Shown one piece after another: positions 4,705 to 54,257 of a stretch of 64,000 bases of DNA. A program made the translations under genes and the position numbers. Origin of the DNA: Spinellus fusiger (taxonomy: Eukaryota > Mucoromycota > Mucoromycetes > Mucorales > Phycomycetaceae); assembly GCA_025094145.1 (NCBI GenBank), contig JALLLS010000018.1, positions 124,001-188,000 on the forward strand, in the 5' to 3' direction. The notes beneath the pieces are model-generated. The model did no database searches. It saw nothing but the letters and a program-made list of their open reading frames with translations, and had not been told where the DNA came from. Position 1 is the first letter of the stretch; every line of letters starts with the position of its first letter.

Positions 4705-6052
4705 TCATTTATTATCACTGTGCTCTTCTTCTGGCAGTGTTAGTGCAATGTGTCGATGCCATCTTCTGCGCAGACTATGTAAGATTTTTAGTAGCCGAGA
4801 GCGCATGTATGGGATAGCAGCTACATTCCATCTTCTTTTGCTACATTTTGAAGACTTTGCCAAAGTTAGTAATACCTCATTTCCTTGTTGGTGTTTACCT
4901 TTAATAGTTTAATATTTTTTGTTGGATTCATTAAAAACATTTCCACAAAATGCAGCAAGTATAGCCCACAGTCAGTTCCATTCTTTTGTAGAGGAACCTA
5001 TGCAAAATAATTAAATAAATGCACATGAAGAACAATAGGCATACATTTGAATGTATAAGCTCGGGCTTGAGGAACAGTTTTTTTCTGGTCTCTTCTTTAG
5101 ACAACGCTTCATACTCTAGGTAATCAGAAAGTAGTTTCATATTTTCAGTTCTATCTTCATCAAGGGAGTCCAATACAAATATATAGGGCCTAAGAAGAAA
5201 AAGATATAAATTTGAAATAAGAAAATATTACTCAAGATATAAAAAAAATCTTACTTGTTGAAGGCTTCTTCGTCTGTACCTTCCTTGTAATCAATACTAT
5301 CCTCATCCTCATCCTCATCAAGATAGCTGTTGGAAATACATCTGTTGATATTACACACTATAAGTAGATACCAGTGATGACTTTCAATAGAATGAGTCTA
5401 GAGTTATAATAGCATGTATTACTTACCATTCATTCACTGGTATAATAACGTATTTCTTTTTGAAAATATCGACTTTTGAAGTCCATTTACGAAGATCACA
5501 AAATGAATTATCCGTGTCTGCTTTATCAAGTAAATCACTGAAGAAATAACAACTAAAAATGTGCGTGTCTTCGATTGTTTCTGGATTTGTCCTGGATACC
5601 AAATCACAAAACCTAATGAAATTCATAGATATATTATTAGAATAAGTAATAAAACTACACGAACAACTTACCGTCGTGCACCAAAATCAATAAGACAGTC
5701 ATTTAAGTATTCTCCTTCTTGTAATTTCATTTCTTCGCTTTTTGTAATGAGAAATTTGCTTCTTTCCTTTCCTTCGAATGGATAGCAGAATAAACTAATA
5801 GAATTAATCAGTAAAAAATGAATAAATGAATAAATAGATTAAAAATACTCTACACTTTCTGATTGCGTGAACTGTAAGACTCTGATTCAGTAGATGAGCT
5901 TGACTCTGACTCGGCTGTAAGATCGACTGTTTCTGAATCAGCTGTAAGATCAATTGTTTCGGGTTGTATCGCTTCAGAAATATTTAAGGATGAAATACAA
6001 TATTCACTTAGACCTGTTATATAAACAGAGAAAGAGAGAAAAAGAGAGAGAA

Positions 6053-13105: not shown

Positions 13106-15007
13106 TTTATAGCTTTTTACATAATGCACTTATTCTTGGTACGCCTATCAAATAAAGTGACGCGGTGAATGCAATATGTTTTTATTTTATTTTATTTTAT
13201 AAAAGAAATCTGTGTAAAATTATCATTTTTAGGAAGAGGTCGAAGTCTCACACATTACATTGAGAGATGCACTCAAAAGCCAATTTCAGTCTGATAAATT
13301 AGAGATAAAATATAATCAAAAACTGAGATGAATTAAATAAGAGAGAAGATATCAATAGTAAAAAGTCTAGGACAAAAGAAAGAAAGAAAATGATTCAAAA
13401 CTGAGCATGAACTATTATGAAAGAGGTTATATTAACCACCAACTTCGGGTTACACCTCCAGATAGCAAAAAAAAAATGCCCAAGACTACTTGGTAAGACT
13501 TCATAAATAACAAGATATAAATGGGAAAATTAAGACTATAAAAAAGTCTCAAGAATATCTAATAGAATAGGACTCTTGTCGAAGAGCCAATTTCAGGCCA
13601 ATTTCCAAGTAGTTAGCTTGGCAGGGCAAACAAAAAGATAATGAACACTCAACTCTTTAAACTATTCACATCCAGGGCAAAAATAGTAGGTGGGTGACAT
13701 TGTCTTCTATAAGAGATGAAGAGTTCACTTTATAATTTTTTTTAGCTGTTCCTGACATTATCTGATCTCTAGCGGGATGATCCATCTTGAGTAAAGCTAT
13801 TTATTTTTAGATCTAACCTTTCTGCTATTGCAAATTGGGAAGTAGGTTGCTCTGTATATTGATGTATACAGAAAATCGTTACCAATATTTATTGAGAAAT
13901 GTATTTTCATTATTACCAGACACATCTTATGACTCTGGGGGTTTTTTTTAACACTAGTTGTTCTCTGCCAGATTTTCCTGCTAGTCTGATCATTATAGTA
14001 AAAAACTAAGTGGAATCCTTAACAAAGATTTCTTTCTTAATATCAATGTTAATGTCAATATTTCTTTTTTAAACAAGCAGATACTATATCAAGCTAGTTT
14101 TTTGTGCGCAAATAATTTATGGAAATAGTGTAATGTAGGGCAGCTGTAGTCGCTAAGCCGTCTGTTTAAATTGGGGAATCCATAGCCTCAGTGATATTTG
14201 ATAGCCTTAAGAATCTTTCATTATACAATAAGTAAATTTTATAATTCAAGATTTATAAAACTAAATAAAAACAAGTCTATTTTCATTAGCTTTCAAGATA
14301 GTTATTGTAGAGGTACGATCGCTCAAGATATTCCTATAAGTTTAGATACTATATTACTGTATTTTGAGCTCAAATTTGGATAGTTTTTCTTTCTTTTTCG
14401 GATGCACTGACTTTATTATTCAGAGTTTGTATTTTTCAGAGTTTCATCAATGGGATTTAGGAAGGGCAAATAAGGCGGCATAAAAAGACATTCTTTAACA
14501 GAGAAAAATCAATTGACCCTAAGGATAATGGTTGCTTGTACAACGTTCTCCGTAAAAGATTGCTAAGAATAGATTAATCATTCAATAAACTTTTAGGACC
14601 ACTGTATGGTTTAAAAATATTTTATGAACATAGTCCAAAATAAGATATAGATACTCATTGAAGAAAGTCTTAAAAATATAAAGAATCTGTTCAAATTTGG
14701 TCAAGACAGTCTGAAAAACAAAACCATCCAAATTTGAACTCAAAATACTGTATTTATTTACTACACTGAGAAATTGTATGCAACTCTCCAAACTTTCAAG
14801 CCTGGGGAGATTGGAGACATACATGCTCTAATTTACTATAATCACACTATTTTTGGAAAACATTAGCATAAATATTGAAAAAAGTTTGATACAGAGAATT
14901 TAAAATAAAATAAACAATACTGTATGTGAAGATAGAAGAAAAAGATATGAACTATGAAAGCAATTGCATATACCAACATGAAGCACTCCGTGGCATAGTA
15001 AAGAGAA
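13106..15007. other. intergenic DNA without recognisable gene
   Basis: AT-rich, with a repeated ATTTT run near 13180-13200. The open frames at 14198-14383 and 14582-14824 show no family motif and no conserved copy elsewhere in the window. Confidence 0.5.
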
Positions 15008-15560
15008 ATGACACAACCAGTTGTTCAAATACTAAAAACAAAAGCCAAAGCGACCTATTTTAAGATATATTTCTCTTTATGGTGTAGTCAATGTAATAGT
15101 AAAGACTTCAAAACTCACAACATTAAAAGAAAAAGAACAAAAGGTACTTCAACAGTAAAAAAAAAGAGCAAAAGTGGCACTTTTACTGGCCACTATTTCA
15201 ATTTTATTGCAATGACACTGGATGTTATGGATAAACACGAGGAATTCAAAGGACATTATTTTTTGGTGGATAATGCACCAACCCATAAGCACTTGGATAT
15301 AAATATTTATAAAAGCATATTGAAACTCGTGGCTATGGCTGTATTTATCTTCCATCCTATTCGCTAGAATTAAACCCAATTGAACAGTTTTGGTTCATCA
15401 CAATAAACAAGCTGAAGAGAGAAAATTAATTAGAGGAAGAAACTTTGAGTTTCATAATCCAAAATTCATGTAGTGTGCTCATAAATGGCCTAAGAGGTTT
15501 TTGTGGGCACTCTGTATCAACATTTGATGATTGTCTTAATCATAGACCTATTTAATAAAA
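15008..15560 (+). pseudogene. IS630/Tc1-superfamily DDE transposase relic
   Basis: A frame to 15367 shows TFTGHYFNFIAMTLDVMDKH and then GHYFLVDNAPTHKHLDI, the strand-Asp-Asn-Ala-x-x-His block of DDE_3-type transposases. After a frameshift the sequence gives LELNPIEQFW with a following basic KLKREN stretch, the third acidic-residue region (N-P-I-E-x-F-W). The N-terminal DNA-binding part is not identifiable. It belongs to a different subfamily from the other Tc1-like copies in the window. Confidence 0.7.
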
Positions 15561-15649
15561 TAAAAACATTTTGGAACATTCGGACTATTTTTTTTTATAT
15601 AATTACTTTTTATATAATTACTGAAAAATCACTTTTTAAGAAGGGTGAA

Positions 15650-16030
15650 TCCGGCTGATTGATTGGTTAATGGATAACTAGATGGTGAAAAGAAACACAT
15701 CAGATTAGGGTTCTTTAATTACTAGCCTACACAAATCCCTGACTTGAACTCAATTGAACATGTCTGATACGCCTTGGAAATATGAATTGAAGAAAGAAAG
15801 GTATCTATTATCAATGTAGAAAGTTGGTATTGAACTTGCACAACGATGAGTTCTGAGTATGACAGACAAATGCCAGGCTGTTATTGATGCCAAAGAAGGC
15901 CATACAAAGTATTAACTGTATTATTATTATTTCATTTTCTATAACTAAATATATTAAGCTTTGTTGAGCTTAAGTGTGAAGCTTATAGATCATATGTAAA
16001 GTGTTTTATTTGATGTTGAGCATGTCCTAT
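15650..16030 (+). mobile_element. Tc1-like element relic, family B (3' part)
   Basis: Sequence from about 15730 reads DLNSIEHV (DDE transposase third motif region), and 15830-16030 matches, in reverse complement, 36735-36960 (shared CATACTCAGAACTCATC, GCAAGTTCAA and the end AGGACATG-TCAACAT-AAATAAAAC). It is a 3' fragment of the same family as 36735-37650. Confidence 0.65.
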
Positions 16031-17145
16031 CTATTTCGTCCTGATATTTATTTTCAAAATTATTCAACTCAATTGAGTGTGGCTGTATTAACACTTTCTT
16101 GAACAAGTATGTTAATCCAAATTATATACCTAATAACTTTTCTTTAGTAAACCATTGTCAAAATAGATATAAAAGCTGTTGTAAGTATGGCTATCTGCGC
16201 AAAAGTCATTAAAATTGTTCAAATAATGATAGATACCAAACAGAAAGTAGAGACATTATGATATGACCAAGAAATGGCAGCTTACTGTAAAGAATGAGTG
16301 AGATGAATCAGCTATACAATCCTATGAGCTATTTACTTCTTTCTCCTACAGGACAGTTAGGTTTGGAATATAAATACATACTTATTTAATGACCAAAATG
16401 TCAAGAGAAGCACACTAAAACACTACTGCTTCAGATTGATATACAGAAATGACTCCAATCACTTGCATGTATTTGGAAAGCTCTCTTTATCAGTATAGAG
16501 TATATACTAACATTGAACAAGGTTGTCTGAATTATATACGGCACAACCAAGACACATTGAGAAGAGATATATTGAGTAGTGCAGGATGCTGTTACCTCAG
16601 ACCCCATTTATTAAAGAAACGAGAGGTGAACATTTAACAGTTTATAAATAAATAAATAAAACAGCTACAAAATCAATGGTATTGAATAAAGCATCCAAGT
16701 CGTAGCGTATTTAATACAGTTGATAGATCTTTTAGAGATAATATAAAAGTACAACAGCCTGCATTAGAATGTATGTCTTTTGGTGGTGATTTCCTTGAAG
16801 TTCTTCTATCTGTAATAATCATTAAAGTATAAAAGAAGTATAAAAGAATAAAAAACAAGTTGAATAAATAAGAGCAGAGTTAATTGTACGTTAACTAAAC
16901 CAATACCTTTGGACCTAAGAAGCTATTGACAACACCATCACATCAATGGATAATAAATAATAGCTGACACTATTCAGTGTTGCTAATAAAATAAATATTT
17001 ATTTCCTCTTTTTCACTGTATTTCTATCTATTCTTTCTGAACTAAAGATGCTACACACTCAACAAGATGTTAATGAAGTAAAGAATATACAACATGCCTA
17101 TAGATTCAACCTAGGATTCTTACATGTATTTGATTTTTATAATAG

Positions 17146-19234
17146 ACTGATGAAGAGCCTATAGCAAGTTCCTTGGGTGAAAATCATGCCAGAATAATGA
17201 CAATCAAGATATCTTTACGTGATACTGCTTGGAGTTCTGAATATTCACCTGTTTTAAAATGTCTGGTCCATAACATCAATACCATTGTTTCTCACACATA
17301 TGCGTTCTCCAAGTATATATTGATCCATCTACTCGAAAATGAAGATGGATCTTCTTTGAATGATTGCATAACTAAGGATTTCTTCCGTGAGGTATTTTTG
17401 TCACTCATTGATAAGCAAATCAGAGAGGGTAGTGCTTCCGGTAAAACACGTCTCACACCCAAGGTGCGTCAAATAAGAGAGAAGATCAACCCTCTGAAAA
17501 ATGACTACTGCCAATATGCATCCTACACTCCACTCAAAATAATCAATGCTCAACAAATCTCCATTTATGAAAGCACCAAGATACACACATCCTACATCAA
17601 TAATATTGTGTCTCAATTTGGGAATCGTCTTAGAATGTTCTTCAACATCATCCTGCGACAAAAAGAAAGAAATGCCACATTGACCCATGCCATGAAAACC
17701 AAAAACTATTCTGAGGAGGCTATTGCAGATATTATTAGATTAAATGTGTTGGATGTGTGCATGCAAATCAAACTAGACATTTCGACAAAAACTGTTCCCA
17801 ATGCACCCGTAGATTTTTGAACAAAAAGGCCATTAGCCAAGTACAAGAACTGCTAGCCTGCTATCCTCCCAGTTATAGATTTTCCAAAAAAAATCCATCT
17901 ATTATGATGTTAAAGCCAATCCAACCAAGCACATGTACACATTTGCTAAACTGGCCCAACTATACGAAGAGAATGGAAACAGATCTTTTAGTTGTTTCTC
18001 ACTTCGTAAAAGCTTCGTTCCCTCTCACATTACGATAGATACTAAGATACTCAACTACCCTATCTTGAAAAACAAAAGCTACACGGGCGAAAAGTTTGAT
18101 CTTTGGGGTCAAGTCGTCAATCTAAAATCAAAGGTGTTCAAAAGTCAAGGTATAGATAGATCAATGAGATTCCAAGGTACAATAGAAACCGATGGTGTGG
18201 CAGTGTCGGTGATCAAGCAAAACTTTATGTCGAGACGTTCCTCGGGTGGTAGTCGCAAAGCACTTATTGATGAGGATCACATTGAGTCTATTGAAGAGTT
18301 ATCTCAAGCTGCGTTAGTAGAGACAAAAGACAGATGTGTACTCATCGATCCGGGTCGTCGAGACATATTATTCTGTATGCAAGAAAACAGTACACCCGAT
18401 AATAAATCCATCTACAGGTATACACGTAATCAACGAGCCAAAGAAACAAAGTCAACCCATTTCAAGAAGCTTCGACAGAACCTCAAGCCTCCATCCACCC
18501 AAAGACTAGAAGACAAACCTAGTCAAGTTCCTGCTTCAACAGTAAAACTCAAAGAGTTCATCAAATACATACAAACAAAAGCAAGTGTGTCGGAGGACTT
18601 GATATTGTATTACGGCAATGAAACAATGAAGGATGATAATGGGCAAACAAAAGACAGTGGTATAAAAGAAAAAGGCCCCTCAAGTGCCAATTCTCTTATT
18701 ATGAAACAATCGCTACTACCATTTCGAAAGATTAAGCTATCGAGTCATATCAATAGATTGCAGTCTGATAAACGACTAGCCCGAAACTTGAGAGCCAAGT
18801 TTGGAGAAGATCCGGTGTTGATCTTGGGCGACTGGTCAAGCACAAATATGAAGTTCCATGAACCAATAAAGGGAAAAAGCATGCGGAGGATGTTGAAGAA
18901 AGAAGGATTCAAACTCTATCTTATCAATGAATTCAAAACATAGAGTCTGTGTCCTGAGTGCAAGTACTCACCTTTGGAAACATTTAAACATGTCAAGAAC
19001 CCCAGGCCCTATCAACGAACAAAAATGCCCAAAGTTAAATGTCATGGTCTTCTCAGGTCATTTCTTCTTAATTTTATATTAAAAAAGAAACTCATTTCTC
19101 TCCTTTCAAATAGGTGTTCAAACTAAAATTGTATGAAAGACAAGACATTGAGGCTTTGGAGTCGTGATCTAGCTGCTACATTGAACTTTAGACATATTCT
19201 AATGTCTCAAAGGGAAAATGGCACCCTCTCATAG
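17146..19234 (+). pseudogene. Fanzor-type RNA-guided nuclease (OMEGA family), frameshifted
   Basis: Fanzor proteins are eukaryotic relatives of TnpB: RNA-guided RuvC nucleases carried by transposons. The coding trace starts after a plausible acceptor at 17145 and has an N-terminal helical region to about 17820, with frameshifts near 17818 and 17905. The main frame (17933-18943) has VLIDPGRRDILF with the RuvC-I Asp at 18347-18349, then PVLILGDWSSTNMKF and LYLINEFKT with the RuvC-II Glu at 18929-18931. A TAG (18941-18943) interrupts the next codon; the same frame continues SLCPEC, a 57-nt GT-AG intron (19057-19113), then RCSN-stop-NC, completing a C-x2-C/C-x4-C zinc ribbon, and LWSRDLAATLNF with the RuvC-III Asp at 19166-19168. 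It ends at TAG 19232-19234. All three catalytic acids and the zinc cysteines remain, yet two stops and two frameshifts make this copy inactive. Family call is by motifs. Confidence 0.75.
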
Positions 19235-19239
19235 TGTTT

Positions 19240-19462
19240 TTGTAGATAGAACAAAAGAAAGCATGACTCCATAGATACACCTAGAACCAATAAAAGGTCC
19301 CAAGCCTTCTGGTTCATCTCCATCCTTCTCTCTCATTATCGCTGGAGCCTCGGTTGACTAACTGACGGAAACCCATGATACAGGTAAACTACCTAAAAAG
19401 TGATAATGAAGTGTATCTTATTCGATTTTGTCATGCAAAAAGATATTATAATATCTAGTATA
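19240..19462 (+). ncRNA. candidate OMEGA guide-RNA region 3' of the Fanzor gene
   Basis: This block after the nuclease stop codon is retained in copy B (30158-30330, inverted) and copy C (39050-39250, inverted), including CCAAGCCTTCTGGTT, a GTTGACTAACTGA-type stretch, AAACTA(C/T)CTA and the final palindrome. In OMEGA systems the guide RNA is transcribed from the region overlapping the nuclease 3' end and the right element end, so position and conservation fit. Transcription is not shown; it may only be the right-end DNA recognised for mobilisation. Confidence 0.35.
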
Positions 19463-19495
19463 AAGAATTGGTACTTGTTTTTATTTTGAATTCAC

Positions 19496-19625
19496 TACAC
19501 ACCAGAAGATTTTTGGGATATATAAAGAAGTCCATGGAGAATAGTATTACGATATTTCTCTGATTAGACAATGTGTTTGAAAAGGCCTTTTCGTTGTCTA
19601 AATGGACTATTTCAAACCATGTAAA
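19496..19625 (+). repeat. TACACACC element end fragment (TGGGATATATAA type)
   Basis: TACACACCAGAAGATTTTTG followed by GGATATATAAAGAA and CTAAATGGACTATTTCAAA matches the left end of 28915-30157. No partner end was found downstream, so this is a solitary fragment. Confidence 0.6.
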
Positions 19626-30157: not shown

Positions 30158-30907
30158 GACATTATAATGTCTCTTGACATGACACACTATATCACTTTTT
30201 AGATAGTTTAATTGTGGCAAAGGCCTCCATCAGTTAGTTAATCGAGATTCCGTTGATCGCTAGGGAAGGAGAAAGAATGATAAACCAGAAGGCTTGGACC
30301 TTTTCTTGGTTCTAATTGTATCATTTGTGTCATGCTATCTTTTGTTGTATCTACAAAAGCCCTCTAGACAGATGTCAATTTCCCTTGGAGACAACAGACT
30401 GTGTCCAGAGTATAATGTAGCAGCGAGATTAAGATTCCAAAGCTTCAATGTCTTGTCTTTTATATAATGTTGGTTTGAACACCTTTGATTTTAAATTGAT
30501 GATGTGGCCCCAAAGATCAAACTTTTAGCCCGTATAGCTATTGTTTTTTTTAAGATGTGGTAGTTAAGTATCTTGGTGTCTATCGTAATGTGAAAATCGA
30601 TGAGGCTTTTAAGAAGTGGGAATCAATTGAAAGATTTTTTTCTATTCTCTTCTCATAGTTGGACCAACCTAGCAAATGAGTACATGTGTTTGGTTGGATT
30701 GGCTTACATCATAATAGATGGAGTGTTTTATTTTTATTTTATTTTATATACCAAATCCGTAGCTAGGAAGATATCAAGCTAGTAGATCTTGCACTTGGCC
30801 AATGGCTTTTCTTTATTTTTCAAGAAATCTATGGGTGCATTGGGAACACTTTTTGTTGAGATATCGAGTTTGATTTGCATATCTACATCCAACATTTAAT
30901 CTGATAA
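30158..30907 (-). mobile_element. Fanzor-like element, copy B (internally deleted)
   Basis: Reverse complement of parts of element A: 30907-30470 matches 17735-18140 (N-terminal and middle coding, ending near TTTAAAATCAAAGGTGTTCA), then a jump to the sequence after 19115, including the RuvC-III region and the 3' conserved block. The deletion removes the RuvC-I and RuvC-II regions. The left side is cut by the Tc1 insertion at 30910. The right end is the palindrome AGACATTATAATGTCT, directly abutting the TACACACC element. Confidence 0.7.
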
Positions 30908-30909
30908 TA

Positions 30910-34025: not shown

Positions 34026-34642
34026 AGTTCTATATTTTTATTTTTATTTTTATTGATTTGGTTTGATTACTTGATTTGATTACTTAGTTTGTAAGTTTTT
34101 CATTAAATGATTTCTTAAGATATTGTGTTAGTACTTTTTTTTTTAAAAAAAAAATACTAATGATGATTGAGTCTTCACAATAATAAACTGCTCTCATGGA
34201 CACTTATTTTTTATGCACCATAGAAAACATAAGTAAAATAATAAAGGTCTGTCACACCAGATTCTATTGTTACTTTAATCAGTTGAGATACTTTCTTGTA
34301 TAAACTTACACACTTATTCTATTTGTCCTTTTTTGATCATTAAAAGAAATTTCAGTCTTCTTTTCTTAATACTGAAAAATAATGAGGTATTTTTTTTATA
34401 TTAAGTACATAACCATCGTCACTGTTTAACGTTAAATCATATGTTGAATTAGTTTTTTAATACGATTTGGTACAAGGTCACTAAGAACATTGTTGTACAA
34501 ATGAACAGTATCACAGATACTGTTTAAGTAAACTCATGAACACATGAGGGGATTATTGATGATAAAACTATATGCTATGGAAATAGCACTTGGTGGCAGA
34601 ACTGAAGATAAGAATAATAGATCGAGGCTCTAGACTAAACTA
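34026..34642. other. intergenic DNA upstream of FMO copy 2
   Basis: AT-rich with TTTTTA/TTTTTATT repeats (34030-34055) and a poly-T/poly-A inverted stretch (34135-34155). No gene recognised. Confidence 0.45.
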
Positions 34643-36000
34643 CAGTGACTCGTGGAAATCTTACGTAGATTTTTCATTTTCCGATATACTTCTGTAATAG
34701 GAAATACTCATTCTTTGTCATAAAAACACACATTAAACACACAGTAGAGACTTCAAAATCAGATGAAGTATAAAGAAAGTCAATAGAATAATAAAAATAA
34801 TTTTATTGGGTAGAAACCATTAGTATTTGGTGTTTCCACCATTGGCCTCAATGACGGCCCTACATCTCCGATGCATGCTGGAAATGAGGGCGTCTGTGGT
34901 GTCCTTGGGGATTTTCTCCCATTCTTCCAACAGAAGCACCTCCAAATCCTGGAGAGTGCTTCTTGGGGTCATCCTCTTGCAGATAGCCCTGTCAAGCACC
35001 TCTCAAAGGTGCTCTATGGGGTTGAGATCGGGGCTCTGGGAAGGCCACCCCTCCATGGTGGCAATGGTCTCTTGTGCCTTCCACAACCTGGACTCTCTGA
35101 TCTTGTGGCAGGTGGCGTTGTCCTCTTGAAGAACATAATCCACCTCTGGATTTAGTGCCTTGAGTCGGGCCAGCTCAGGGCAGTATTCCTTCTTCAAGAT
35201 CTCAATGTATCTTGCAATATCAATACTGCCCTTCACAGGCGCCAATCTCCCGACACCTTCACCAGAGAAAGATCCCCACACCATTACGCTGCCACTTCCA
35301 AACTTCACAGTGGGCTTGAAGTTCTTCGGTAGCAGTCCTTCATTCACTTTTCGTACTACTCTGGTACGGTTGTTGGTGGTGACCAACTGGTATCTGGACT
35401 CATCGGACCAGATGACCGTCTTCCAGTCGTCCTCGGTCCAGTGGAGGTGGGCCTTAGCCTAATCAAGCTTCAGCTTCTTGTGCTTGATGCTGAGAAGGTT
35501 TCTTGACCACCCTGGAAGAAAGCAGGCCAATATTCTTCGTCTTTCTAAAAGTGCTCATGGACACTTTGGTGGTCATCTGGCTGCGAAGCTGATTCATTGT
35601 CTGGAATGAATCTCTTGCCACTTCGCGGGCAACTTCTCTCTCGTCCCTCTCTGTCAGAATGGGCTTGCGCCCAGTGCTCTTCTTGGCCTTGAAGCAGCTA
35701 GTTTCTTTATATCTCTTTACGATAAAGGAAACCGACTGCGCACTGACTCCAAACCTAGCAGAAATGGCAGCCTGGCTGGTCCCATTTACGGTGGCCTCGT
35801 GAGCAATGAGGCATCGAGTGAAGTCATAGATATTCTTTTTTCTGTTTCCAAGAGGTCTCATGAGTTGTTTGGCGGTGTTAGATGTGGTAGACATTAGAGT
35901 AGAACAGCGATAAATAAAGAATGTTTAATATAAAAATAAAATTCAAGGGTAAAATTAGGGTCTGAATTTGAAACGTCCCTTGTTTTTTTTACCCCCACTG
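34643..36000 (-). mobile_element. Tc1-like element, family C
   Basis: The termini CAGTG/CACTG are flanked by TA at 34641-34642 and 36001-36002, giving about 1358 bases; the inverted repeats beyond five bases are weak. GC content is clearly higher than in the flanks, and the transposase is the best preserved in the window, so the insertion is probably younger than the other Tc1 families. Confidence 0.65.
34826..35894 (-). pseudogene. Tc1-type DDE transposase, family C, nearly intact
   Basis: Cut-and-paste transposase. Frame 35894-35463 begins MSTTSNTAKQLMRPLGNRKK and carries the paired helix-turn-helix part (EATVNGTSQAAISARFGVS, then SIVKRY-like, KSTGRKPILTERDEREVAR). Frame 35386-35003 has the catalytic part: VMVWGSFSGEGVG (after the first Asp region), YVLQEDNATCHK (second Asp) and WPSQSPDLNPIEHL (third acid). 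The two frames are separated by an in-frame stop near 35463 (TAATCAAGC context) and at least one shift near 35000, where the C-terminal part (SMHRRC-type end near 34880) continues in another frame. Few lesions compared with the other families. Confidence 0.8.
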
Positions 36001-36012
36001 TATTTTACTTTT

Positions 36013-36734: not shown

Positions 36735-37650
36735 GAACTTTATATAGGACATGTTCAACATTAAATAAAACATTTCACATTTGATCTAGAAGCTTCATAA
36801 TCAATCATACTAAAGCTCAATATCTTTAATTATTGAGAATAAAATAATAATAATAGAATTGATATTTTTGGGCCTTCCTTGGCATTAATGACAGTCTGGC
36901 ATCTATCTGTCATACTCAGAACTCATCATTGTGCAAGTTCAACACCAACCCTCTCCCACTCTTCTGCAAGTAGAGTTTTCAAACTTTCAACATTGGTAAT
37001 AGATGCTCCTCTTTCTTTAATTTGTCTCTCAAAGGCACATCAGACATGTTCAATTGGACTCAAGTCAGGACTTTGTACGGGCCAGTACTCAAAGCACCCT
37101 AATTTGATGTGTCTCTTTCCACCCTCTGGCATAGGCCCCAGTATGACAGATAGCACACTTGTCCAACAAAGCCGTTTCTCTTTGTGTTTTTCGGTTTACG
37201 TTGGTTTGTGTTCTACAGAAAAGGATACATACTCTAACTGATTGCAGTGGCTGATAATGGTGTCTCTGCATACATCCACCTCAAACTTCAACATTTCCAA
37301 TTTCAGTTGATTCTATGAGACAAATAGGTCCTTTCTAATGACTTTTTCCAGGTGTCTGAGGTTCCTCTCACTGAGCTTTTATTTATTTATTTATTAGGTT
37401 TTCTATAACTCTTCAAATGTAACAGTGGCCTATGTTCTTTGATGTTTCTGATACTATTTTGAACTGTGAGCTTATTCATCATAATTATGCTTTCAATGAC
37501 AGTCGATTTTAATCCAGCCTTCAACTGGTAATAAATGCCCCATCATCTATCTTTTGCCTTTTAATATTTTCCACAAGTGTGAGTTTCTGAATATCTATCT
37601 GGCATGTTGTTTTGGTTGAATAATATTTAGAAAGAAAAAGAGCTTTTCTT
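36735..37650 (-). mobile_element. Tc1-like element, family B, degenerate
   Basis: Reverse-strand reading near 37090-37040 gives YWPVQSPDLSPIEHV, the conserved end of the DDE domain, followed by a region matching 15830-15950. The remainder to 37650 is broken by stops and contains a basic N-terminal stretch. One end matches the end of the copy at 15650-16030. Confidence 0.65.
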
Positions 37651-37694
37651 TCTATTAAAATCTAAGCAAGTATTAAAATCAACTGTGTGTGGCT

Positions 37695-37722
37695 GTATAT
37701 CCCATAAATCTTTAGGTGTGTA
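37695..37722 (-). repeat. TACACACC element end fragment
   Basis: Reverse complement reads TACACACCTAAAGATTTATG then GGATATAC, matching the TGGGATATATAA-type end. No partner end identified. Confidence 0.5.
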
Positions 37723-39044: not shown

Positions 39045-39440
39045 TATATTTACTAAACATTATACTACCTTTTTGCATTACAAAATCCAATAAGACACAC
39101 TATATCAGTTTCTAGATAGTTTGTCTGTACCGTGGGTTTCTGTCAGTCAGTCAACTGAGGCTCCAACGATCACTGGGGAGAAAGAAGGAAGGAAGGGAGA
39201 TGAACCAAAAGGCTTGGAATTTTTCTTAGTTCTAGTAGTATCTTTATATTTTCTTTGTTATTCAACCTCTTTGTTATTCTTTTATACTATTTTAATCTAA
39301 TTGTTACTGCAGATAGAATAACTTGGAGGAAATAACCACCAAAAGGCATACATTCTAATGCAGCCTATTGTACTCTTATATTATCTCTAGAATATATCAA
39401 TTGCATTCAAATACACTACAGCTTATCATAGTGCTTCATC
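39045..39440 (-). mobile_element. Fanzor-like element, copy C (short non-coding derivative)
   Basis: Reverse complement joins the left arm of element A (16634-16830: AACAGCTACAAGATCAATGG, CTGCATTAGAATGTATGCCT) directly to its right arm (from about 19265: CCAAGCCTTTTGGTTCATCT through ATATAGTGTGTCTTATTGGA). The whole nuclease gene is missing. It is a MITE-like derivative of about 0.4 kb, which marks both ends of the parental element. Confidence 0.65.
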
Positions 39441-40440
39441 CCAGACCATTGATCTTGTAGCTGTTTTTTACTATTTGCTAACTGTTAGTTTCCTGTTTTT
39501 ATTTATTTTAAATATAAGATCTATTTTTGCCTGCCAAAGACTTTGAATTTATAGACAGACAGACACAAGATCTTAACTTGGCTCTAATGATCCAATGTAT
39601 ACTTACAAAATAATCTCTCTCTCTCTCTTACCCCAATTCCTTGGATTTCTCAAGCAAATGATTCCATCTACCTTTGGAAAGATGCACTGTTAGTATTGGC
39701 CCAGACTGATTACTGTAGCTGGGATAAATCTACTCTTGCCCCATCTATTGGGTGTCAATAGTATGTCTGACTTTGACTATGAGCTAGTGACTGCAAATGC
39801 ACATGAGAGAAATCAGCCGCTGAGTAGTTTGATTTGTTACAGGTAGATTTCCCCTTTCACCACGGGTGTAGTCTGAGATCAAATTGAAAGCACAGGCAAA
39901 GTATGATGGTTGATTCACTCTTTCTTAATAAAATGATCTCAGATACACTGGAATAGTAATGAACAGTTTGGACATAGACCAATGGTCTTCTTGTGTGGGG
40001 CTGCGTGGATAGTATCTTCAGGGGTGATTGCTATTTTTAACAATTAAGTTTGTTATGAGTGTCAGTATTAGTAGCACTGCTGTTGTGGTGATGATTTTCT
40101 TCTTCTTTTCTGCTTTTACCATATTCTATTCTACTCTATTCTATTCTGTGTGTGCATTGGATAGATACACTGGTAATTCAATTCATCCTCACCAACCCAC
40201 ATTAGCTGTCCCTAGTAGCCAAAACTATATATATAGTTATATATATAAAATAGTCCTGCATTAATGATATTCATGACCTTAGTACTGCCACTGCCCAACC
40301 TATTCTATTCTTCATAGAAAAGGTAAACTTTTCTATTGATCTTTTTCAGCTCAACCTACTGTAGAATGTCCTTAGTCATCTAGAAAATATAATAAAAGAA
40401 GCCAATATTCCGCCTATCAGCCTCTCTTACTCTGATTGTC
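39441..40440. other. intergenic DNA upstream of the mitochondrial carrier gene
   Basis: Mixed composition, rising in GC towards the gene. CT microsatellite at 39608-39628. A short frame at 40028-40264 has no recognised motif. Confidence 0.4.
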
Positions 40441-52931: not shown

Positions 52932-53627
52932 ATGAACACTACTATGTGCCTCCTACCCAAGAAAGGTGAGCCTACCCTCCTTCGCAACTGGCGCCCCCTT
53001 TCCTTAATCAATTGTGACGCTAAAATGTTTACACGGATGCTGAACTCGAGAATGGTCTGTGTGGCTGACCATGTCATTAATCCCTACCAAACTGGCTTCC
53101 TTCCTTCTCGCTTCATTGCTGACAATGGTCTAGCCTATGATTGGGCTCATCCCCAATACCTCCAGTATGTCCTTACCCGTTTCCGTTTCCGTTTTTCTAA
53201 TTCTCTGCAAGTGACTTGTGTCTACTATGTTCTCCCAGTCAGACCTCTCAGCGCGACGTATGACTGATTAAAGACGTTTAATAAAAAAGTGTCCTATATA
53301 AATAAATAAAAAAAGATAAGAAATAATCCGTTGGTGACAGTAGCCCGTGGACTCTATAGACCTGTTTGGGATCCAATTCTACTACCGTGCACGCGCAAAG
53401 AAAGACATTGTCTACTAAAATGGAGGATTGCTTGGTTACCACCAACACCCTCAGTTCATTGCCAATGTGGTCACCCTTCGGCTAACAGGGACCACTTCCT
53501 CAGATGCACATACATTGACCATGAACGCTCCACGTTCTTGTTCTTTTTAGTTCCTGCCCCATCACAAGACGTTCATCCAATTGACCATTGTTTAAATCTT
53601 TTGCCGCGCACGGTTGTCTTTTGTTGA
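52932..53627 (+). pseudogene. LINE ORF2 remnants (reverse transcriptase and C-terminal zinc region)
   Basis: MCLLPKKGEPTLLRNWRPLS then LINCDAKMFTRMLNSRM and INPYQTGFLPSRFIADNG are the conserved N-terminal RT blocks of LINEs (L-x-P-K-K-G, N-W-R-P-(I/L)-S, Q-x-G-F-x-x-x-R). The catalytic FADD block is absent, removed by a deletion after 53150. Frame 53331-53627 has HCQCGHPSANRDHFLRC, a C-x-C-x6-H-x3-C type zinc motif found near the C-terminus of such ORF2 proteins. Confidence 0.78.
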
Positions 53628-54257
53628 ATGGCGAGATCTTTGGCCCAGTTTGTTAATACTGCTGCAAGCCATTGATTGAGCCACGTCTACTCGAGACTTT
53701 AAGGTAGAGCCATCAGCTGGTAGCTTGCTCATTGAGGCTGCTGATGGGTGTGTTGAGCGGGAACACCAATGCTACAATAGAGTGCAAAGGACTCCTTCAG
53801 CAACAGACGCTGTATCCTCACTTCTCCTCCGATCTCTCCTCTACCACCCATTCTTAGCCCGTTTAGCAAAGCCAGAAGCTGCTAGTGTGGTTGGTGTATT
53901 TATTTTCAGCATTGTCCAAGTTGCTCTAAGTATCCCTCTTTGGATTTTGAACCACTACAGGATGATAGTTATCTTTCTGGTGTCCTGGTTTCCTTGTTGA
54001 CTTTATGGCCTTTTGGATGTCTATTCATGATTTTCATTTTACCATCATTTTTTTTCATTTTTTTCCCTTATTTTTCCCTCATTGAGGTTTTATATTCTCT
54101 TATTCTTCTGTTTCCTCTCTCTTTGCATTATTATTTTTCACTTTTGTATTTGAAGTGTTTCTATGTATATCCCTTTTTTTTTCAAAAGTTCTCATAGGGT
54201 GGCTGATATGCCCAATGCGCGAATAGCAAACCACACCCAAAAAAATAATATTTTAAA

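Follow-up and report, generated by a model that had tools for sequence, protein, structure and literature searches.

A decayed Fanzor1 gene in a probable Helitron derivative of the fungus Spinellus fusiger

Fanzor proteins are RNA-guided DNA-cutting enzymes and relatives of CRISPR nucleases; RepHel combines an HUH nuclease with a helicase. Fanzor1 genes have been described in non-autonomous Helitrons of Chlamydomonas and in MuDr-like elements of Rhizopus, Phycomyces and Mucor (Bao and Jurka 2013, PMC3627910). A cut-and-copy role has been suggested for Fanzor beside HUH transposases such as Helitrons (PMC10432273). We analysed a stretch of 64,000 nucleotides of Spinellus fusiger DNA (the window), positions 124001-188000 of contig C90 in a genome assembly of 38.08 Mb and 197 contigs. 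It contains a broken Fanzor1 gene within a repeated element, which we believe is probably a decayed, non-autonomous copy of a Helitron-derived element with the RNA-guided nuclease Fanzor1 as its cargo. This reading builds on the identity of the gene and its catalytic acids, the fixed ends of the element, a foldable block at its right end, RepHel relics in its interior and, at other places in the genome, RepHel genes that are linked to the same right end. Fanzor1 in Helitrons is already known; what is uncommon here is the physical link to RepHel. For mucoralean fungi, such a linkage was not found in the parts of the literature searched, which did not cover Jiang et al. 2023.

The Fanzor1 gene occupies positions 17197-19234 of the + strand, and its ATG at 17197 is consistent with the start in relatives. 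Its coding frame is disrupted twice by an in-frame stop and twice by a frame change, and the parts of the gene are these:

17197..19056, + strand: exon 1 of Fanzor1, with frame changes near 17814 and 17885 and an in-frame TAG at 18941-18943
19057..19113, + strand: intron of 57 nt, GT-AG, within the zinc ribbon
19114..19234, + strand: exon 2 of Fanzor1, with an internal TAA at 19124-19126 and the normal stop TAG at 19232-19234
18347..18349, + strand: codon of the RuvC-I aspartate (DPG motif, IDPGRRD), aligned with SpuFz1 D383
18929..18931, + strand: codon of the alternative RuvC-II glutamate (LINEFKT), aligned with SpuFz1 E541
19166..19168, + strand: codon of the RuvC-III aspartate (WSRDLAATLNF), aligned with SpuFz1 D606

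The initial annotation of this locus had proposed a Fanzor gene from the order of its TnpB/Fanzor motifs, with three RuvC acids retained in a dead copy bearing two stops and two frameshifts. All of this is borne out: the named motifs were all found in the expected order on the + strand, in frames spanning 17146-19234, and the acids and lesions are those given above. As it reads, the window copy encodes no working protein.

Pfam found no family in five window frames and NCBIfam gave one chance hit, so we base the Fanzor1 call on solved Fanzor1 chains. When the central frame (354 residues) was compared with solved proteins at E up to 10, the sole sequences returned were three Fanzor1 proteins and none was an unrelated transposase: PpFz1 of Parasitella parasitica (E 1.4e-94), SpuFz1 (3e-38) and the Fanzor1 of Guillardia theta, GtFz1 (9.4e-5). 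The N-terminal frame matched PpFz1 as well (4.4e-42), as did the first half of the zinc ribbon (5.5e-8). The last exon alone, too short to decide, matched PpFz1 weakly (0.027, below chance WD40 hits); in the sister copy L005 it aligns as part of the full-length protein. The alignment of a whole protein to the solved chains was made with this sister, the window copy being compared in pieces. The spliced L005 protein (664 residues) matched PpFz1 at 1.3e-172 and SpuFz1 at 1.8e-56, with only the three Fanzor1 proteins returned at E up to 0.001, and the homology covers its entire length. These comparisons confirm that the window gene matches Fanzor1 far beyond chance.

With L005 as query, a single constant offset of 394 in the PDB chain places all three acids opposite their SpuFz1 counterparts (numbering of PMC11423790). 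The DPG motif and the repositioned glutamate are Fanzor signatures (PMC10711439), and both are present, together with the third aspartate. The zinc ribbon sits between RuvC-II and RuvC-III (CPEC ... CHGLLRCSNxNC). Its CPEC starts at 18950, and in the window copy the ribbon is interrupted by a stop (CSN-stop-NC, 19115-19132). The GT-AG intron that had been predicted does exist, but it lies inside the ribbon, between CHGLLR and CSNxNC, and not between the ribbon and the last motif. Of 20 aligned tails that contain it, one from the window copy and 19 from sisters, 18 have a GT donor and two, L005 and L092, have AT. Where an acceptor was found (18 loci), the intron measures 53-63 nt. Removal of the intron in L005 yields CHGLLRCSNQNC, aligned opposite CHGLLRCKNMSC of PpFz1.

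The central frame has at least 116 matches in the genome. Nine places outside the window match 352-353 of its 354 residues at 90-95% identity, which supports recent amplification of the element and agrees with the earlier proposal that it was recently active. The expectation of intact sisters held only in part. We scanned 22 of the sister loci frame by frame against the L005 protein. Only L005 is open across residues 1-664, but its splice donor reads AT, and no fully canonical sister was found among the 22. Three more have open frames, but L004 misses residues 43-130, L019 starts only at residue 370 and L002 stays open just to residue 613; the remaining scanned sisters have frame changes, stops or missing parts. 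In a large protein database, 136 relatives were found at E up to 0.001 among 7989 candidates scored; full-length identity is 50% at most (Pilaira anomala) and rises to as much as 55% in short stretches. Among the 120 relatives listed, those named come from Pilaira, Parasitella, Gilbertella, Rhizopus, Mucor, Thamnidium, Helicostylum and similar fungi, and some from Umbelopsis, Coemansia and Martensiomyces. Judged from these relatives, a mucoralean host is probable. The interpretation given in the initial annotation is supported; the ends of the element, its candidate right-end RNA and the link to Helitrons go beyond it.

The gene is embedded in the following structure:

15612..19460, + strand: whole copy of the element from left to right end, 3849 bp, bounded by alignment with sisters
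15612..15645, + strand: left end, ATATAATTACTGAAAAATCACTTTTTAAG..., set by 22 mutually different left flanks and by 19-mer counts
15678..16087, + strand: 3' remnant of a Tc1/mariner-like insertion within the element, with its right terminal inverted repeat (TIR) at 16062-16085 and an adjoining TA
16293..16598, + strand: 5' part of a RepHel gene region, including a relic of the Rep N-terminus (16440-16634), 81-86% identical to the RepHel loci C143b and C13
16667..16786, + strand: 3' tail of the RepHel region, 78-83% identical to C13 and C143b
19441..19460, + strand: right end, hairpin GAYATTATAATRTC followed by TAGTA

Similarity to sisters stops at window positions 19459-19470 in 27 of 29 loci; L024 and L025, which belong to a second Fanzor family, are without a right end of the window type. 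The left end, at about 15612, is common to at least 40 places, the window copy included. Its 19-mer has 24 exact matches, and with up to 2 mismatches it has 96, versus 25 for the reversed control. The right end, which can also be read as a hairpin plus CTAGTA, has the terminal hairpin in the right ends read, and 8 of 29 distinct rows carry a double change at one of its pairs. The ends of the element have no TIRs. The best inverted match, with a length of 11 bp that was reached by 16 of 2000 shuffle pairs, is subterminal, its arms standing 16 bp and 56 bp away from the two ends. No target-site duplication (TSD) was seen in 7 loci with both ends read, as their flanks have words of at most 3-6 nt in common. 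A first search for such duplications (13 left boundaries) was discarded because the boundaries were mostly not the true left end; with earlier left boundaries, one pair of L003 flanks shares TTAAATA.

Sisters L088 and L089 show that about 850 bp are missing from the window copy at 15677/15678. Most of this lost sequence belongs to the carried insertion, whose TIR CAGYCACACYCAATTGAATT is found inverted at the opposite end in sisters. We take this insertion to be Tc1/mariner-like, the tail of its transposase having been read by eye. Its left TIR was at one time regarded as the left end of the element, and this was dropped after the outer left end had been found.

The host flanks carry a preference of their own. 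From 62 right flanks collected by script, 7 false ends were removed and 55 kept; ACT occurs at +7/+8 in 27 of these (27 before the removal as well), whereas other pairs of offsets average 2.1 and reach 5 at most. The left end itself has ACT about 8 nt from its first conserved base. This would fit one enzyme that recognises both left end and target by the same word ACT.

The connection with Helitrons comes from the interior of the element and from RepHel loci elsewhere. The loci C143b (L114) and C13 (L115), 88% alike over 2.57 kb, hold about 2 kb of Rep and helicase-like coding sequence between the parts that match 16293-16598 and 16667-16786. Because the relics in the window flank the place of these missing 2 kb, the region upstream of Fanzor is an internally deleted RepHel region. 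When the genome was searched with PF14214 (Helitron_like_N), 27 matches were obtained, among them several weak ones that lie by coordinates inside Fanzor elements. Individual sister frames scored 9.5e-5 (L007), 2.5e-4 (L027), 0.013 (L038) and 0.091 (L014), all below the curated cut-off. On C101 (L064), C143 (L061/L090) and C2 (L063/L092), RepHel runs in the same orientation into the 3' part of a Fanzor element and the same right end, beyond which three different host flanks follow. C175 (L113) has an open reading frame (ORF) of 916 residues with PIF1 (PF05970, 1e-72) and the end of PF14214 (2.5e-12). Its similarity to other RepHel loci ends at L113 positions 5558-5591; a left end begins at 5590 and is followed by a fragment of the presumed guide-carrying RNA (omega-RNA). 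As expected of the Helitron superfamily, the element also has a 3' terminal hairpin, no TIRs and no TSD. Given the RepHel linkage, the fixed 3' hairpin end and the absence of TIRs, it looks like a Helitron derivative, which we assign to neither Helitron1 nor Helitron2.

The second component is a presumed RNA at the right end, for which we propose the following features:

19330..19460, + strand: candidate omega-RNA scaffold, with stem-loop 1 (SL1) at 19330-19347, stem-loop 2 at 19348-19368, the terminal hairpin at 19441-19456 and the final TAGTA
19461..19476, + strand: host right flank, the putative guide position by analogy with SpuFz1 (PMC10432273)

The block GGTTGACTAACTGACGG, located 3' of the stop codon, has 237 matches in the 38-Mb genome at up to 2 mismatches versus 5 for its reversal, and deletion copies that lack most of the Fanzor gene retain the right-end region. 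SL1 has a degenerate 5' arm in the window copy. At gathering score, nothing in the window matched an Rfam family. We aligned 30 copies (29 distinct) and compared a three-helix model with 500 shuffles. The model pairs 91.8% of cells (shuffles 91.3; 35/500 as high), with a covariation score of 0.113 versus 0.101 (7/500) and 9 double-changed cells versus 4.5 (23/500), 8 of the 9 in the terminal hairpin. Covariation support for the fold is modest. Comparison across families is the stronger support: a UAUC loop is common to both Fanzor1 families on stems of 7-8 bp made of different letters, CCCCAGU/ACUGGGG (7 bp) in L064 versus GGUGUAGU/GCUACACU (8 bp) in L098. SL1 has seven pairs in all three solved Fanzor1 RNAs (PMC11423790). 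L025 and L105 of the second family have a different single-strand fold.

In S. punctatus, the RNA extends 14-15 nt past the conserved region, which spans the inverted repeat, and these additional nucleotides form the guide (PMC10432273). In our element the analogous guide would be the host flank, and the target would be the empty allele. If, on the other hand, the scaffold is as short as the RNA of PpFz1 (75 nt, PMC11423790), the guide would start near GGTA, at a distance of about 70 nt from the right end, and would be fixed within the element. The sequence that follows GGTAAACTA is less conserved, and several of the 30 rows have indels there, which argues mildly against such a fixed guide.

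We suggest that these components act together as follows, the mobilising enzyme and the source of the guide being what we infer. RepHel supplied by rarer full copies would move many non-autonomous copies in trans, through single-strand transposition of the rolling-circle type. Both the left end and host sites that resemble it, with ACT 6-7 nt downstream, would be recognised by the enzyme, which would stop at the right-end hairpin. Fanzor loaded with right-end RNA might then cut the site chosen by its guide, that is, the host flank or empty allele if SpuFz1 is a valid precedent. Cutting of the empty allele would favour retention of the element, and deletion copies that keep ends and RNA would represent ghost loci. 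Such a scheme, with a RepHel Helitron and Fanzor1 in one element, left-end-like sites being chosen and the empty allele being cut, would be a eukaryotic counterpart of bacterial peel-and-paste and cut-and-copy. We regard this broader parallel as a tentative proposal, more doubtful than not.

Several observations weigh against a Helitron origin or against parts of the mechanism. The window's own Rep relic frame had no PF14214 hit. No autonomous copy has both ends proven: C175 had no clear right end, a left end was not found beside the RepHel genes of C101, C143 and C2 at up to 4 mismatches, and at C143b and C13 neither a right end nor an omega-RNA core was found downstream in the stretch fetched. 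Six RepHel loci were read to a sufficient distance, and the link with Fanzor is seen in four of them (all except C143b and C13; C84 and C136 are outside this count); RepHel of C10 is interrupted by another repeat. Helitron1 elements have 5' TC and 3' CTRR termini (PMC3627910); here the 3' CTAG fits and the 5' TC is absent. In Helitron2, the distances of the asymmetrical terminal inverted repeats from the termini are 0-2 bp on the 5' side and 20-30 bp on the 3' side (PMC3627910), and the 11-bp repeat described above is differently placed. A search with joined flanks for an empty site gave no match across the join, and the window's own right flank is without ACT at +7/+8. As for the RNA, two of five covariation measures show no excess (2 pairs with double change, 343/500; 14 further pair types, 500/500), and single-sequence folds (n=7) have z-scores from -0.3 to -2.3, 6 of 7 not clearly exceeding shuffles.

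Could the presence of RepHel beside Fanzor be a chance adjacency, inherited by a few duplicated loci, while another enzyme does the mobilising? The two unlinked loci and the unlocated left end of the composites speak for it, but the shared right end is followed by three distinct host flanks, and RepHel relics flank a deletion within the Fanzor element itself; we therefore hold this improbable. Another reading has the element moved by a Crypton-like tyrosine recombinase, for which TAGTA, a core of 6-7 nt and the host ACT would be the two half-sites, with RepHel as a bystander. The inverted arrangement TAGTA ... TACT at the right junction and the resemblance of the right flank to the left end are compatible with this, and Cryptons are among the Fanzor1 partners in PMC10711439. 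In the genome, however, PF00589 (Phage_integrase), a model that may miss Cryptons, gave one match, on C135, with E 3.8e-4 and below cut-off, and the element shows RepHel relics and composites. We consider a recombinase of this kind quite unlikely.

Mobilisation of the whole unit as a composite Tc1/mariner, driven by the insertion with TIR CAGYCACACYCAATTGAATT, has in its favour that the mariner remnant, together with the junction that joins it to the element, is found in at least 40 places. Both ends of the element can be read as TA-flanked, and Fanzor1 in mariners is known (PMC3627910). Yet the right TIR of the insertion itself, at 16085, is internal to the element, whose left end is situated beyond the mariner and whose right end differs from the mariner TIR, so that we give a composite very little credence. 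Finally, the idea that the gene is a host gene or a domesticated Fanzor, rather than transposon cargo, is close to negligible: the central-frame matches are many and often contain stops, the ends are fixed, and the window copy cannot make a protein. A Helitron derivative carrying Fanzor1 is thus the explanation that we favour.

Some further features of the window and of the sister loci deserve mention. An older, internally deleted second copy of the Fanzor element lies at 30190-30909 on the - strand (78% identical at the DNA level); pieces of Fanzor coding sequence occur there in two frames. A third fragment at 39051-39487 (- strand) consists of a right end and sequence like 16635-16873 (79% identical). 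Repeats at 34636-36003 and 53322-54056 match the RepHel locus of C13 (80-82%) and sequence upstream of RepHel on C143 (89%). At 36741-37701 there is a further Tc1/mariner-like copy, a relative of the insertion inside the element. The ORF at 15002-15367 (+ strand; ...YFLVDNAPTH...), with chance hits only in Pfam, presumably resembles a Tc1-like transposase. Right ends of L005, L011, L033, L052 and L092 have a longer terminal palindrome, TACTAGAYATTATAATRTCTAGTA or near it. L066 (G000:C1:816680-816910), one of the 22 left flanks read, has right-end-like sequence directly before the left end, and L047 (G000:C195:97110-97360) has left-end-like sequence after the right end; we read both as tandem or nested insertions.

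The second Fanzor1 family, L024 and L025, is 49% identical to the window frame. Together with L096-L112, these are further Fanzor1 copies, mostly 41-65% identical to that frame (L109: 72%). In 15 of these 19 loci that were aligned, there is a conserved RNA block unlike that of the window family except for the SL1 loop. Window positions 19496-19617, beginning 36 bp past the right end of the element, match in opposite orientation the sequence 3' of the Fanzor gene in L024/L025 (76-79%). Read by eye, the terminus of the L024/L025 family looks like a terminal repeat with TA next to it, and this family may be a mariner-like one.

Among solved proteins, PpFz1 (PDB 9cf0-9cf3) is the closest relative and has the same DPG, alternative glutamate, zinc ribbon and RuvC-III. 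Its FRI insertion of about 100 residues, which binds cyclophilin (PMC11423790), is absent here: in the L005 alignment, 16 residues stand opposite 94 of PpFz1. The Parasitella proteins among the database relatives have 802-849 residues, compared with 664 in L005. We thus have a Fanzor1 near PpFz1 yet without the cyclophilin-binding insertion. SpuFz1 of Spizellomyces punctatus (PDB 8gkh, 9ceu-9cez), whose three catalytic acids align with the window gene, has a right-end RNA and many ghost loci (PMC10432273). It lies between 30-nt inverted repeats where the authors of that report found no transposase, whereas here we see a hairpin end, no TIRs and a RepHel link. The mucoralean Fanzor1 elements ROr-4, PBl-3 and MCi-4 of Rhizopus, Phycomyces and Mucor are of MuDr type, with MuDR-like TIRs and 9-bp TSDs (PMC3627910), neither of which is seen in our element.

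A parallel is offered by CRe-1, CRe-2 and CRe-3, the Fanzor1 Helitrons of Chlamydomonas, which share with our element intact 3' ends, internal deletion and a T-rich left target, and which are frequently truncated at the 5' end (PMC3627910). Unlike in the CRe elements, the positions of inverted repeats here do not fit Helitron2. CRe elements are non-autonomous and share their ends with separate Helitrons (PMC3627910), whereas in S. fusiger RepHel is joined to the element in several loci. With RepHel joined to Fanzor1, more than 200 matches to the core of the putative right-end RNA and a measurable target preference, the cut-and-copy idea becomes testable in this system.

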